This document shows positions 18,126 through 25,421 of a stretch of 64,000 bases of DNA, one piece after another. The DNA comes from Bacillus sp. KH172YL63 (GTDB taxonomy: Bacteria > Bacillota > Bacilli > Bacillales > Bacillaceae_B). A model generated the notes under the pieces. That model did not search any database. It had not been told where the DNA came from and saw only the letters and a list, made by a program, of their open reading frames with translations. The DNA lies in contig NZ_AP022842.1 in the NCBI RefSeq assembly GCF_011398925.1, forward strand, positions 1,166,001 through 1,230,000, read 5' to 3'. Position numbers and translations under genes: made by a program. Every line of letters begins with the position of its first letter. The stretch's first letter is position 1.

Positions 18126-18186
18126 TTTATGCTGTTTTTGGAGAGGATTAACTTATATCATGTGCTTTTGCTCAGCCATCATCTTT

Positions 18187-18551
18187 TTAAAAGGCTCTTT
18201 TCGTATAGATTGTTGTATTATTAGACATTAATGTGAGCATCTTCGGTAATTTGAGACTGTGGAATAAATTTTAGTATCGATGAATCAAGGGCATTGTATT
18301 TGAATGACGTTGATCACAACTATTCAGAAGATGAATAAGCAGTTAATCCAGTGGATTTTTGGTTTTTATCTTCGATGGTTGATTGGAGCGGAAGATGCTC
18401 GACTCCTGCGGGAAACGCTGGAAAGGTGAGACCCCGCAGGCGAAGCCGAGGAGGCTCATCGCCAGCCCCGCGGAAAGCGAGCATCTGGAGCGGAAATCAA
18501 CCGCACCTCGCTTGTTTATAAGCCACAATGTTTACGAAAACAGCCTTTTAA
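18187..18551. mobile_element. MITE-like element, copy 1 (non-autonomous, about 357 bp)
   Basis: The element runs from AAGGCT at 18191 to AGCCTT at 18547. Its ends are inverted repeats: the left end AAGGCTCTTTTCGTA matches the reverse complement of the right end at 14 of 15 positions, and similarity continues with gaps for another 10 bases. TTAA flanks both ends (18187-18190 and 18548-18551) and looks like a 4-bp target duplication. No transposase frame is present. A GC-rich structured core lies at about 18377-18502. A second copy of nearly the same length is at 24959-25318. The remainder of the 649-base gap shows no gene. Confidence 0.75.
18377..18502. repeat. Structured core repeat, copy 1 (nested stems)
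   Basis: Three nested complementary pairs are visible: GGTTGATT (18377-18384) with AATCAACC (18495-18502), AGATGCTCG (18393-18401) with CGAGCATCT (18478-18486), and CCTGCGGG (18405-18412) with CCCGCAGG (18433-18440). The conserved block GGTGAGACCCCGC and GAGGAGGCTCA is shared with the other copies. It could be a structured RNA or a DNA cruciform. Short ORFs across it are not credible proteins. Confidence 0.7.
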
Positions 18552-18736
18552 ATAGACTGTTTTCTTTAAGGGCCATAAGTACATCACTTCCAAAGGCAGC
18601 GGTTTCAAAATATCCTGGGCATGTCAATGATATTTGTCACCTTTTTGAACTTTCTTCCATTTAGGATAAATGAATATCCATATCTGTCGAATTGTGGTAT
18701 TTTGATAGAAACGATGTCTTTCAAGTAGGTGTGAAA

Positions 18737-21643
18737 ATGGTCAAGTCCTTTCAACATATTTACCGTAATGAGCAATCTTTACGTCGATTTATCATAGAAA
18801 ATGAAATAGCCCACTATCCTACCCTTTTGATTCAGGCTTTTGTCGGCAGTTCCCCGAAAGAAGCCATACAGTCACTGCAGGATCAAATCACCCGGTTGTT
18901 GCCTCATGCTACCCTCATCGGATGCAGTTCAAACGGTCAAGTGAAAGAAGGGGTGGTCGTATCAGGGACCGTCCTGACATTCACCGTGTTTGAGAAGACT
19001 GTCATCAAGTCGCTCCTTCAAGAAAAATCCTTCCCGGGCAGGCAGATGGGCAGACAGCTTTATGAAACAATAGGCCAAGCCGACACAAAAGCCTTCATTA
19101 CGTTTGCCAGCCACTTACATCTTCAGGTACAGGAATATCTCGATGGTGCATCGGAAAATGGAGAGGGTATCGTCATTGTCGGGGGTGTCACATCTGACCT
19201 TCCCGATGTGAGGCCGACATTTGTATTCAATAATCATGACATTTCAAGGGAGGGATTCGTCTCCGTATCACTGTCAGGTGAGAATTTGCGCGTTCATTCA
19301 AAGTCCATCGAAGAATGGCAGGAAATCGGGTCAACCTTTCATATTACGAAGGCCGGTGGGAATGTCATTAAGGAGATAAACGGTATGCCCCCGCTTCATC
19401 TCCTGGAAAAGTATTTAGGGAAGCGGTTTGTCAGGGATCTCCCGGATTCCTCGATCGAGTTTCCTTTTCTCCGTCAGGCGGAAGGTGAAAAGGTGGCAAT
19501 CTATATTATGAACGTAGGGAATGACGGAGGGTTGGAGTGCAGCAGGGAAGTGGCAGTGGGTGATAAGATCTCGTTCGGGTTCGTCAGCACCCTGCAGTTG
19601 ATCCAATCTACCACCAGGCTCCTGACTCAATTGGCGCGCAGCCCTGTGGAAAGTCATTTCGTCTATAACTGTGTAGCAAAGAAAAAGTATATCAGGGATA
19701 TGACGAATCAGGAGCTTTTTTACCTTAACAGGGTGTCGCCTGTGAGCGGCTTTTTCTCTTTCGGTGAATTCGGATCCTACAACGATAAGCCGGTACTGAT
19801 GGCACATTCCTTAACGTATCTTGGGTTATCAGAAGGTGTTCGTGAACCGATCAGGGAAATGAAAATTGACTTTACCTTGACCCCTGAAGCGAATGCAATG
19901 ATGTCATTGACGAATCTAATCAACACAGCCGAAAAGGACATTCAGGAATTGACTCAAAATATCCAGGTATCTGAGGAATATTACCGGTCACTTTTTGATA
20001 ACAATACCGACTTTGTATACAGTACAGATTTAAAAGGAAGATTCACATCCATCAATCCATCCTTTATGAAGACATTCGGATTTGCGGAGGAAGATGTGCT
20101 GGGAAAATCGGCCCTTCATTTCATCAATCAAGAAGATATACAACGGGTGAGGAGGCATTTTTACCTGGCAATGGACGGAAGGGCTCAATATTATGACCTT
20201 CCCTTCACTTCTGCAAATGGAGAAGTGAACAATTTCCAAATCAAGAATGTCCCGATAACCGTTGATGGGAAGTGCGTGGGAATCTTCGGGATTGGCAGAG
20301 ATGTAACGAAAGAGAGGCAGTATGAAAAGAAAATCACCCAGCTCGCCTTTTATGATGGTGAAACAGATCTTCCGAACAAAATGAAGTTCAGGGAAATCCT
20401 TGATGAAAAAATCAGAAGCGGGAAAAAGAACCAGGAACTTGCCCTATTGTTTCTAGATATGGACCGGTTCAAGATGATCAATGACACCCTTGGTCACGCT
20501 GCAGGAGACCTGGTCATTAAAGAACTGTCCGACAGGATCAAATCCATCCTGCCACCGGGTGCTGTACTGGGGCGTTTCAGCGGTGACGAATTTACGGTCT
20601 TGCTCACAAGGGACGTAACCGAGTCTGCCATCTCACATGTGACTCAATCGATTTTGAAAGCGATCGAAGCCCCATTCACCCATGAATACAAAGAATTTTA
20701 TATTACTGTCAGCATCGGTGTGGGCATTTATCCGAGGGACGGGGAAGCCTCGGCGGACCTTTTGAAAAATGCCGACTCCGCCCTCCATTGGGCGAAGGCA
20801 CAAGGTGGGAATACGACCGTTTACTTCTCCAGGGATATGAAGGAAGAAATCACCCGGAAAGTAGAGATGGAAGCAGAACTCCGCAGGGCGATTGAACGGG
20901 ATGAGCTGTTTATCGCCTATCAGCCGATCATTGATATCCCATGCGAAACACTCATTGGCTGTGAAGCATTGCTGAGATGGCAACATCCGTCATGGGGAAT
21001 GATTTCCCCGGCGGAATTCATTCCGCTCGCTGAAAAGACGGGTCTCATTTATGAAATCGGTAAATGGGTTCTGGTCGAATCGTGCAGGCAGCTGATGAAA
21101 TGGAATATGGAGCACGGAGCGAGCTTTTATATGTCTGTCAATGTATCGGCGCAACAGTTCCAGCACCCGACCTTCCTGAATGATGTAAAAGAAGCGCTGG
21201 AAATTTCCGGGCTCCCTCCTGAACAACTATGCTTGGAATTGACAGAAACGATCATGCTTCACGATTCATCCCATACGATCGCCGTCATGCAGTCGCTTGC
21301 CAATCTCGGCGTGAAGCTTGCCCTGGATGATTTCGGAACCGGCTATTCATCACTGAGCTATCTGAAGGATCTTCCTCTTCACATCTTAAAGATCGACCGC
21401 TCCTTTGTGCAGAATATGAGCGACCACAGCCCTGATGTAGCCATCGTTCAATCGATTGCCACCATGGGGAAGGGGTTGAAGATGAAGGTCGTGGCTGAAG
21501 GTGTGGAAACCCAGGAACAATTGGATCTGCTCAAGCAGCTTGGCTGTGACTGCGCGCAAGGGTTCCTTATCGAAAGGCCCATGCCGTGGGAGGATATGGA
21601 TGCTTTTCTGAAGGCGTCAAGCCTTGTGACAGCCCGGGAGTAA
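18737..21643 (+). CDS. FIST-PAS-GGDEF-EAL signalling protein (c-di-GMP turnover)
   Basis: A 968-residue cytoplasmic sensor. Residues about 25-215 form a FIST N domain and 215-375 a FIST C domain, which are thought to bind small ligands such as amino acids. About 410-530 is a PAS domain (YYRSLFDNNTDFVYSTDLKG). A GGDEF domain (about 545-700) has the active-site variant SGDEF and no RxxD inhibitory site before it. The EAL domain (about 720-960) keeps EALLRW, DDFGTGYSS and EGVET, so phosphodiesterase activity is likely. The ATG at 18737 follows AGGTGTG; the earlier in-frame ATG at 18692 has no site. No transmembrane segment is seen. It has no equivalent at this place in B. subtilis. Confidence 0.93.
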   Translation: MVKSFQHIYRNEQSLRRFIIENEIAHYPTLLIQAFVGSSPKEAIQSLQDQITRLLPHATLIGCSSNGQVKEGVVVSGTVLTFTVFEKTVIKSLLQEKSFPGRQMGRQLYETIGQADTKAFITFASHLHLQVQEYLDGASENGEGIVIVGGVTSDLPDVRPTFVFNNHDISREGFVSVSLSGENLRVHSKSIEEWQEIGSTFHITKAGGNVIKEINGMPPLHLLEKYLGKRFVRDLPDSSIEFPFLRQAEGEKVAIYIMNVGNDGGLECSREVAVGDKISFGFVSTLQLIQSTTRLLTQLARSPVESHFVYNCVAKKKYIRDMTNQELFYLNRVSPVSGFFSFGEFGSYNDKPVLMAHSLTYLGLSEGVREPIREMKIDFTLTPEANAMMSLTNLINTAEKDIQELTQNIQVSEEYYRSLFDNNTDFVYSTDLKGRFTSINPSFMKTFGFAEEDVLGKSALHFINQEDIQRVRRHFYLAMDGRAQYYDLPFTSANGEVNNFQIKNVPITVDGKCVGIFGIGRDVTKERQYEKKITQLAFYDGETDLPNKMKFREILDEKIRSGKKNQELALLFLDMDRFKMINDTLGHAAGDLVIKELSDRIKSILPPGAVLGRFSGDEFTVLLTRDVTESAISHVTQSILKAIEAPFTHEYKEFYITVSIGVGIYPRDGEASADLLKNADSALHWAKAQGGNTTVYFSRDMKEEITRKVEMEAELRRAIERDELFIAYQPIIDIPCETLIGCEALLRWQHPSWGMISPAEFIPLAEKTGLIYEIGKWVLVESCRQLMKWNMEHGASFYMSVNVSAQQFQHPTFLNDVKEALEISGLPPEQLCLELTETIMLHDSSHTIAVMQSLANLGVKLALDDFGTGYSSLSYLKDLPLHILKIDRSFVQNMSDHSPDVAIVQSIATMGKGLKMKVVAEGVETQEQLDLLKQLGCDCAQGFLIERPMPWEDMDAFLKASSLVTARE

Positions 21644-21716
21644 TGATAAGAAACAAGTGCAGATGGCCGTAAGTAAACACAAAGGGATTGGGACAAAACG
21701 GTGTTCGTCAATAGAA

Positions 21717-21763
21717 AATCCGAACGAGTGATTTATCATAAATCTACTTCGTTCGGATTTTTT
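21717..21763 (+). terminator. Terminator after the GGDEF-EAL gene
   Basis: AATCCGAACGAAGT-type arms (AATCCGAACGAGT / ACTTCGTTCGGATT) with a T tail. The same arm sequence recurs in the fabF terminator at about 60698. Confidence 0.85.
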
Positions 21764-21802
21764 GTGCTGTCACTTCTTATATGTATTGAGCAGGTTCCAG
21801 CT

Positions 21803-21926
21803 GTTGATTGGAGTGCAGGGCGGAGACTCCTACGGGAAAAGTGGGGTAGGTGAGACCCCGCTGCAGATAGCGCCGAGGAGGCTCACCGCCGCCCGAGGAA
21901 AGCGAAGCCTTGCACGGAAAATTATT
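21803..21926. repeat. Structured core repeat, copy 2 (core only, covarying stem)
   Basis: This copy shares TTGATTGGAG, GACTCCT.CGGGAA, GGTGAGACCCCGC and CGAGGAGGCTCACCGCC with the two larger copies, but lacks the element ends. Its closing stem GTGCAGGGC (21813-21821) pairs over 9 bases, one of them G-U, with GCCTTGCAC (21907-21915). The bases differ completely from the AGATGCTCG helix of copies 1 and 3, so pairing, not sequence, is kept. The rest of the 576-base gap (21644-22219) holds two terminator hairpins and nothing else recognisable. Confidence 0.7.
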
Positions 21927-24836: not shown

Positions 24837-24954
24837 TGCCGGACTTCCGTTATTTGGCAGTACCAGGGGATTTGTAAGAATGAAAGAATGTAAACCGCCA
24901 TAAATTTGTATAGAACATGTCCAGATGCTTTGGTGGAAAATCAAAGAGGGCTTT

Positions 24955-25322
24955 TATCAAGGCTCTTTTCGGATTGATGGTTGTTATTAATAGAGGTTAA
25001 TGTGAGCATCTTCGCTCATTTGAGACTGTGAAATGAAAAATGTCACAGCAATGAATCAAGGGCAGTTTACTTGAATGACGTTGATCATTACTATTCGGGA
25101 GATGAATAAGCAGTTAATTCGGGAGCTTTTGGTTTTTATCTTCGATGGTTGATTGGAGCGGAAGATGCTCGACTCCTGCGGGAACTGATGGACAGGTGAG
25201 ACCCCGCAGGACAAAGTCCGAGGAGGCTCACCGCAATCCCCGCGGAAAGCGAGCATCTCTCGCTGCAATCAACCGCATCTTGCTTGTTTAAAAGCCACGA
25301 TGTTAACGAAACAGCCTTTATC
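24955..25322. mobile_element. MITE-like element, copy 2 (about 360 bp)
   Basis: It extends from AAGGCT at 24959 to AGCCTT at 25318. The left end AAGGCTCTTTTCGG and the reverse complement of the right end (AAGGCTGTTTCG) form imperfect inverted repeats. TATC flanks both sides (24955-24958 and 25319-25322), a different 4-bp duplication from the TTAA of copy 1. Interior similarity to copy 1 is high along the whole length, including GTGAGCATCTTCG near the left end and TGACGTTGATCA, GATGAATAAGCAGTTAAT and TTGGTTTTTATCTTCGAT before the core. It fills most of the 676-base gap between asnO and the carotenoid operon. No protein is encoded. Confidence 0.75.
25147..25274. repeat. Structured core repeat, copy 3 (inside MITE-like copy 2)
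   Basis: The same three stems as copy 1 are kept: GGTTGATT (25147-25154) with AATCAACC (25267-25274), AGATGCTCG with CGAGCATCT, and CCTGCGGG with CCCGCAGG. The loops between the stems differ from copy 1 (GAACTGATGGACA against GAAACGCTGGAAA). Confidence 0.7.
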
Positions 25323-25421
25323 AAAGACAAGATGAAAATACATCACGTGTACAGACAAGCTGGCATAATCGAAAAAACAGTTTGCTGCATTTTAAAGTGG
25401 AAAGGTATTGTATAACTATTG

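Follow-up and report, generated by a model that had tools for sequence, protein, structure and literature searches.

A tsr24-related structured-RNA module as the probable cargo of short mobile elements in Bacillus sp. KH172YL63 and other Bacillaceae

Introduction

The bcr1-type repeats of the Bacillus cereus group are intergenic, folded and mobile. The elements studied here can be likened to them by description alone, that is, as intergenic folded mobile repeats in Bacillus. A closer comparison can be made with the MITEs of the IS1595 family. The elements that we call A-type resemble these MITEs in their ends, in their 8-bp target duplications and in the presence of an apparently intact IS1595 partner in the same genome, but they differ in carrying a conserved structured RNA-like core, and related cores also occur in backbones with other flanks (the B type, and the copies of Halobacillus and Psychrobacillus). 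Another related system is tsr24 (Rfam RF02577), a small RNA of Staphylococcus aureus that reportedly came originally from a transcriptome study of this organism.

The nearest parallel is provided by the BOX, RUP and SPRITE repeats of pneumococcus, which are interspersed, have proliferated, are strongly folded and were judged to be parasitic, some BOX copies being expressed (PMC3049150). They are largely restricted to pneumococcus and S. mitis, and the abstract mentions no link to a single-locus RNA gene (PMC3049150). REP/RAYT palindromes are characterized by a GTAG- or CGTC-type tag and a REP-associated transposase. A length of 20-40 bp is given for REPs (PMC3733652), and the core described here is several times longer. 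A search of the titles and opening abstract lines of papers readable without subscription found none on the present repeats.

We analyzed a stretch of 64,000 nucleotides of Bacillus sp. KH172YL63 (positions 1,166,001-1,230,000 of a 4.25 Mb contig), which we call the window. It contains three copies of a GC-rich element, and a sequence-only reading had drawn attention to the second of them, at 21803..21926. Judging from sequence comparisons, we think, with a probability of about 0.7, that this element is a structured RNA, kin to tsr24, that has been amplified by DNA transposition as the cargo of MITEs.

Results and discussion

The structured core of the reported copy occupies 21803..21926 of the + strand. 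Its 5' arm GTGCAGGGC (21813-21821) and its 3' arm GCCTTGCAC (21907-21915) are complementary at nine positions, with eight Watson-Crick pairs and one G.U pair, and the helix is formed in the MFE fold. The 9-bp helix described in the sequence-only reading is therefore real. The same reading regarded the copy as core-only, but this description has to be replaced. That is, the copy is a right-truncated member of a longer subfamily, B, and its left arm is still there. The truncated B-type element, consisting of the left arm and the structured core, extends over 21685..21926 (+). Its left flank, from about 21685, is common to other B copies (e.g., L006, L008 and L010), and it has lost the right flank and arm as well as the 3' strand of the outermost stem. 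In the left arm, a terminator-like hairpin TCCGAACGA..TCGTTCGGA followed by a T-run was recognized by eye at 21717..21763 (+), and most of the 11 B copies compared have the same arrangement. The gene upstream of this copy (18692-21643) encodes a 983-residue FIST-PAS-GGDEF-EAL protein.

The arms of the reported copy had also been said to consist of wholly different bases from those of copies 1 and 3. The sequences indeed differ, but the registers differ too: in alignment rows L008 and L017, the B-type arms begin about 5 positions outside AGATGCTCG, and homology between the A and B arms is limited to the AG(A/G)(T/C) portion. The neighbouring blocks, which had been described as unchanged, gave a mixed result. 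GGTGAGACCCCGC is exact in all three copies, but GAGGAGGCTCACCGC is exact only in copies 2 and 3, with one difference in copy 1 (CATCGC). As for the covariation proposed from this comparison, little can be proved with three copies that belong to two subfamilies, but relatives gathered in an alignment of 48 sequences carry the case, as described below.

The fold z-score of the reported copy was -1.84 (10 of 200 shuffles folded as well), and its - strand gave a slightly better value of -2.23. The z-scores of copies 1 and 3 were -7.05 and -8.98, respectively. A covariance model, R1, was built from 48 seed sequences, none of which came from the window. In a search of the window, R1 detected the reported copy with 76.2 bits (E 2.3e-19). 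We conclude that the reported copy is a decayed, truncated insertion.

Alignment A1 consists of 48 cores from named genomes and from the own genome. Its seeds were found, among the matches listed (120 loci), with a pattern for the central part of the core, which means that the lack of variation there is partly by construction. Of the 139 cores that were extracted, filtering by length and 90% identity left 51, and three of these (L066, L116 and L134) were excluded for scrambled or shifted ends. A1 forms a rod-like structure of 45 pairs, in which 89.8% of the cells pair (83.4% after shuffling). As many as 31 of the 45 pairs have changed on both sides, compared with a mean of 13.2 in shuffled alignments and 11-16 in slid controls, and the covariation score was 0.186 (shuffled 0.084; slid at most 0.047). 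None of 500 shuffles, a control that is not phylogeny-aware, reached any of the five measures.

A second alignment, A2, consists of 32 very divergent matches aligned to the R1 model. Its covariation score was 0.649 (shuffled 0.159; slid at most 0.099), 91.4% of the cells were paired (shuffled 61.1%), and 397 cells had changed doubly (shuffled 123); for each of these values, 0 of 500 shuffles did as well. Two measures were weaker, namely 37 pairs against 32.5 (reached in 4 of 500 shuffles) and 108 types against 97.8 (1 of 500). By these shuffle-based comparisons, both alignments show the covariation beyond chance that is expected of a member of the structured non-coding RNAs. The sequence-only reading had taken structure kept over sequence as a sign of a functional RNA or of a hairpin recognized by an enzyme. 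The fold is indeed conserved well beyond the window, but the function as RNA is something that we infer.

The divergent relatives are informative about which parts are kept. In A2, GACTCCT, GGAAAGC, GACCC and G..G..GGC are retained at 90% or more, and most stem columns vary. That is, nearly all stems are altered in these relatives, and the GACTCCT/GGAAAGC and GACCC/GGC motifs persist. In a few rows of A1 (L045, L064, L115 and L145), the ACUC/AAAG internal loop is replaced by pairable sequence. Between the outer stems lies a covarying helix of two pairs, with a GGA/GGA internal loop on either side. Pairing of CCTGCGGG with CCCGCAGG in a pseudoknot, considered by eye, was dropped because the 5' strand covaries with the CCCRCGG arm on the 3' side (pairs 33-110 and 34-109).

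The tsr24 model matched locus L221 with 96.1 bits, over the R1 match, and the same motifs can be recognized in the alignment. tsr24 resembles our element in having GGCGAGACUCCUGAGGGA..AGACC..CCCUAGGAAAGCG in the same fold and in being multi-copy in genus g34, probably Staphylococcus (genome G221: 79 matches at E up to 10, of which 50 are above the cut-off). The hit of tsr24 in genome G164, at model positions 129-204, also lies within an R1 match. In the reverse direction, R1 matches four further loci brought in by tsr24 with 25.6 to 43.1 bits; L242, L244 and L253 are above the tsr24 cut-off, and L245 is below it. Alignment A4 (128 matches) includes wrong-strand matches, and no count was taken from it. 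Across 398 genomes of the class, 27 had tsr24 matches at E 1e-5 and 15 had matches above the cut-off, compared with 0 of 14 controls. In a more lenient run, with E values of up to 10 accepted, matches were also obtained in 4 of 14 control genomes, none above the cut-off.

tsr24 differs from the present element in its length of 238 nt and in its flanks. No tsr24 match at E 1e-5 was obtained for the own genome in the class-wide search, which was the stricter one. Among the matches listed in the own genome, the two best, both of which are B copies, reached 27.7 and 22.3 bits (E 5e-4 and 0.013), and the gathering cut-off is 50. Judged by the threshold that Rfam sets, the window copies are not tsr24. 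When known Rfam families were considered for the window, none reached its gathering cut-off. The two families nevertheless share the internal-loop motifs and the stem order, and their models hit each other reciprocally, as members of one superfamily should. These likenesses make a good case that the window copies are homologues of the tsr24 core.

A single-locus form of the element was found in genus g64. One very divergent member is present at a single syntenic place in 10 of 10 genomes examined; these were drawn from the 12 genomes of the genus that had hits in the class-wide R1 search, so that the count is not a measure of absence in the genus. The locus sits between the gene for a ribonucleotide reductase beta subunit and the gene for an RNA-binding regulator of the GSP13/CvfD type (both flanking genes read as ORFs in 2 genomes, both flanks aligned in 5, and the 5' flank seen in all 10). 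A promoter-like box, consisting of TTGCTT (9 genomes) or TTGATT (1 genome), 17 variable nucleotides and TACGCT, stands directly before the GGACAGG/hairpin. In 9 of the 10 genomes, the closing helix is succeeded by a T-run. The locus looks like a transcription unit, which we call putative, and the GSP13/CvfD-type regulator is a candidate partner of the RNA. Some g64 genomes have further copies elsewhere. In L222, the S1-domain regulator gene downstream of the syntenic RNA lies at 847-1239. This conserved locus offers a clean place to test the role of the RNA.

We then considered what carries the core. Two main subfamilies are present in the own genome, A with AGATGCTCG/CGAGCATCT and B with GTGCAAGGC/GCCTTGCAC, and a few copies have other arms. 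Elements of both subfamilies enclose one module of about 125 nt. Copy 1, a 353-bp A-type MITE with IS1595-type terminal inverted repeats, was delimited by sequence comparison at 18193..18545 (+). It is bordered by the target-site duplication TTTTAAAA on the left (18185..18192) and TTTTAAAT on the right (18546-18553; 7/8 identical), and its structured core lies at 18378..18501 (+; R1 136.9 bits). Copy 3, also an A-type MITE, is 356 bp long (24961..25316, +; right end read by eye). Its target-site duplication TTTATCAA at 24953..24960 is repeated at 25317-25324 (8/8, by eye), and its core is at 25148..25273 (+; R1 129.5 bits).

The A elements have terminal inverted repeats of 28-30 bp that start with GGCTSTTTTCG. 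The terminal-repeat pattern, with up to 3 mismatches allowed, had 59 matches in the own genome and 0 for the control. The signal of target duplication peaked at a length of 8, where 355 of 456 positions agreed (shuffled maximum 244); 18 of the 57 rows were perfect and 32 of the 57 agreed at 7/8 or better. Lengths of 6, 7, 9, 10 and 11 exceeded their shuffled maxima only slightly, and a length of 5 did not. In reading these values, it should be noted that L161 was entered on both strands and L160 once, which accounts for 3 of the 18 perfect rows, that a few long rows span compound elements, and that copy 3 was entered as 4/8 with its end one base off.

The same genome also contains an autonomous partner, L160. 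It is an apparently intact IS of 1521 bp with A-type ends and with TTCTATTT on both sides as an 8-bp duplication. Its transposase belongs to the IS1595 family (NF033547, 204.8 bits with a cut-off of 75; PF12762, 59.6 bits with a cut-off of 27), and it also encodes a 72-residue ORF whose zinc-finger match is below the cut-off (39.9 of 45 bits). Since the ends and the 8-bp target duplications of copies 1 and 3 match those of this IS, we assign both copies to the IS1595-type MITEs, a carrier that the sequence-only reading had overlooked. On sequence grounds, the A elements are very likely moved by the IS1595 transposase. A relative of 813 bp, at 839-1651 of L161, has IS1595-type ends and perfect 8-bp duplications; by eye, its passenger is one lipoprotein-like reading frame, and no transposase was seen in it.

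We compared these insertions with homologous loci in related genomes. R1 found no core at any of 6 loci homologous to the neighbourhood of the reported copy (one of them, L259, ends shortly after the gene), nor at any of 8 loci homologous to the neighbourhood of copy 3, and the same search detected both copies at the own-genome loci. These loci are 14 of the 19 related-genome loci; the weaker ones (L261, L262, L273, L274 and L275) and a second match in the own genome (L263) were left out. Since the homologous sites are without the element, the insertions of the reported copy and of copy 3 look recent or lineage-specific.

The B elements have AGGTTGGGACAAAA-like ends, unlike the A ends, and no clear target duplication was recognized in them by eye. 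The reported copy, with such ends, no clear duplication and its right end missing, does not qualify as an IS1595-type MITE. In Neobacillus, Peribacillus, Gottfriedia and Alkalihalobacillus, the copies are bounded by their own IS1595-like ends, and for individual ones such as L085 an 8-bp duplication was recognized by eye. The copies of Halobacillus and Psychrobacillus have different flanks. Because flanks and ends differ in this way between the B, Halobacillus, Psychrobacillus and IS1595-like carriers, one core sits in several backbones. The core may be an independently mobile unit.

The 8-base blocks that flank the core do not behave as a target duplication. When GGAGCGGA is written as X and CTCGCTGC as Y, the 48 matched cores of the own genome comprise 42 XX, 3 XY, 1 YX, 1 YY and 1 X?. 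The replacement of GGAGCGGA by CTCGCTGC on one or both arms was seen in copy 3 (its 3' block, 25259-25266), L038, L180, L189 and L192, and the CTCGCTGC block was found in another species too (L060). Coreless hairpins of the form GTTGATT-CTCGCTGC-AATCAAC, in which CTCGCTGC is the loop, are present in L173, L175 and L200.

The element is widely distributed. The strict core-middle pattern had 49 exact matches in the own genome and 0 for the reversed control, and R1 had at least 88 matches there (150 of 809 candidates scored). All 13 genomes of the genus, the own genome included, were positive with R1, each with at least 17 to at least 122 matches, and in the same search 18 of 21 genomes were positive. 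In the class, at least 76 of 299 genomes were positive at E 1e-6 when 11 candidates were scored for each genome. The statement of the sequence-only reading that similar GC-rich elements are common in Bacillaceae was right. R2, a model made from the divergent set and applied with strict filters (8 candidates scored per genome), detected at least 4 of 398 genomes of the phylum, own included, all four of them in the class of the window genome, and it added no new lineage among these 398. R1-type cores were also found in 15 of 72,556 plasmid records, in Bacillaceae and Paenibacillus. Spread by sequenced phages was ruled out, because the core of copy 1 had no match in 50,697 phage records.

These observations can be brought together in our main reading as follows. 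The core would be a structured-RNA module of about 125 nt that represents, in one superfamily with the Staphylococcus sRNA tsr24, the branch of the Bacillaceae, and it would travel as the cargo of short non-autonomous DNA transposons. The A carriers would be moved by the IS1595 transposase, and the B carrier, to which the reported copy belongs, has different ends and possibly a different mover. Transcription may occur by read-through from neighbour genes or from an own promoter, the latter being suggested by the g64 locus. The transcript is predicted to fold into a rod, in agreement with the covariation, with variable stems around two conserved motifs, namely the 4x4 internal loop (ACUC/AAAG) and the bulged GACCC/GGC helix. 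The probable role of these motifs is to bind a protein or to dock mutually across the bulge. Selection would maintain the fold and the stems would drift, and the reported copy would be one truncated insertion in decay.

This reading connects GC-rich repeats that occur in dozens of genomes, of Bacillaceae and their relatives, with a single Rfam sRNA family, and it provides these repeats with an alignment, a fold and a candidate mover. Provided that the RNA is expressed and functional, about 100 copies of one regulatory or parasitic RNA are present in many genomes. As a tentative extension, the element might be a bacterial counterpart of SINEs, in which a tsr24-like RNA, with a fixed single-locus form near an RNA-binding regulator gene in one genus, has been captured repeatedly by different MITE backbones and has reached up to about 120 copies per genome in Bacilli because the RNA aids persistence, for example via a host RNA-binding protein such as GSP13/CvfD.

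A different explanation is that the core is part of a plain MITE or a REP-like DNA hairpin. That is, it would matter only as a cruciform or single-strand hairpin, the RNA would have no function, and the arms would owe their lasting complementarity to template switching or to a hairpin-reading enzyme. The core is in fact extremely palindromic and both strands fold, with the - strand of the reported copy slightly ahead in z-score. Palindromic MITEs can preserve the complementarity of their arms by hairpin-templated repair without selection on RNA, and the swaps of GGAGCGGA to CTCGCTGC on either arm resemble hairpin-templated events. In addition, IS1182-type ends (TTTTTCAGTGGCC or close to it) lie in the apical loop of the core in L006 (3369) and L168 (794), which were flagged by script (2 of 16 rows), and in L225 (1691, minus strand), which was found by eye. 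It is as if IS1182 targets extruded hairpin loops, and this position of its ends hints that the DNA also forms a hairpin. However, several features speak against this explanation. The unpaired motifs are strongly conserved across very different stems. With one fixed U.G column excluded, G.U exceeds A.C on the core strand, by 41 to 28 in A1 and by 47 to 16 in A2, and the free energy of the + strand is the lower one in both copies tested (-51.3 vs -46.7 and -70.1 vs -62.2). Taken comprehensively, the kinship with an Rfam sRNA family, the excess of G.U over A.C on one strand and the promoter-like box before the single-locus form favour an RNA, and we consider it unlikely that the core serves as DNA alone.

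The copies might instead have a cis role at gene 3' ends, where they would be tolerated or co-opted and would affect mRNA stability in the form of folded 3' UTRs or attenuators. By crude ORF calls, 57 of 61 rows lie outside ORFs, and the upstream gene is co-directional in 38 of the 57 copies with a called upstream ORF. Terminator-like hairpins, recognized by eye, precede all three window cores. However, this orientation bias is modest, and in copies 1 and 3 a terminator-like hairpin stands between the gene and the element, which would limit read-through. Moreover, the two window positions that were checked are empty in related genomes. We regard a role as a 3'-end element as quite improbable. 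Accidental pairing in a chance GC-rich repeat, to which the near-chance fold of the reported copy alone might point, is practically ruled out by the family-level covariation and the genome-wide copies.

Some further observations were made on individual loci. L006, mentioned above for its IS1182-type end, carries broken IS1182 transposase frames, and L225 belongs to another genus. In plasmids of Bacillus subtilis and Paenibacillus urinalis (L240 and L241), the core follows gnd in a zwf-gnd-pgi region, and that of the P. urinalis plasmid is near a recombinase and a Tn3-family transposase. Finally, the core of L166 harbours another GC-rich hairpin element, CGTTCAGCCCCGACAAG..GACCTCGAGGGGCTAG, nested within it at about 716-839; a similar one is present in L068, from another species, and the cores of L198, L199 and L203 are longer by a similar amount.
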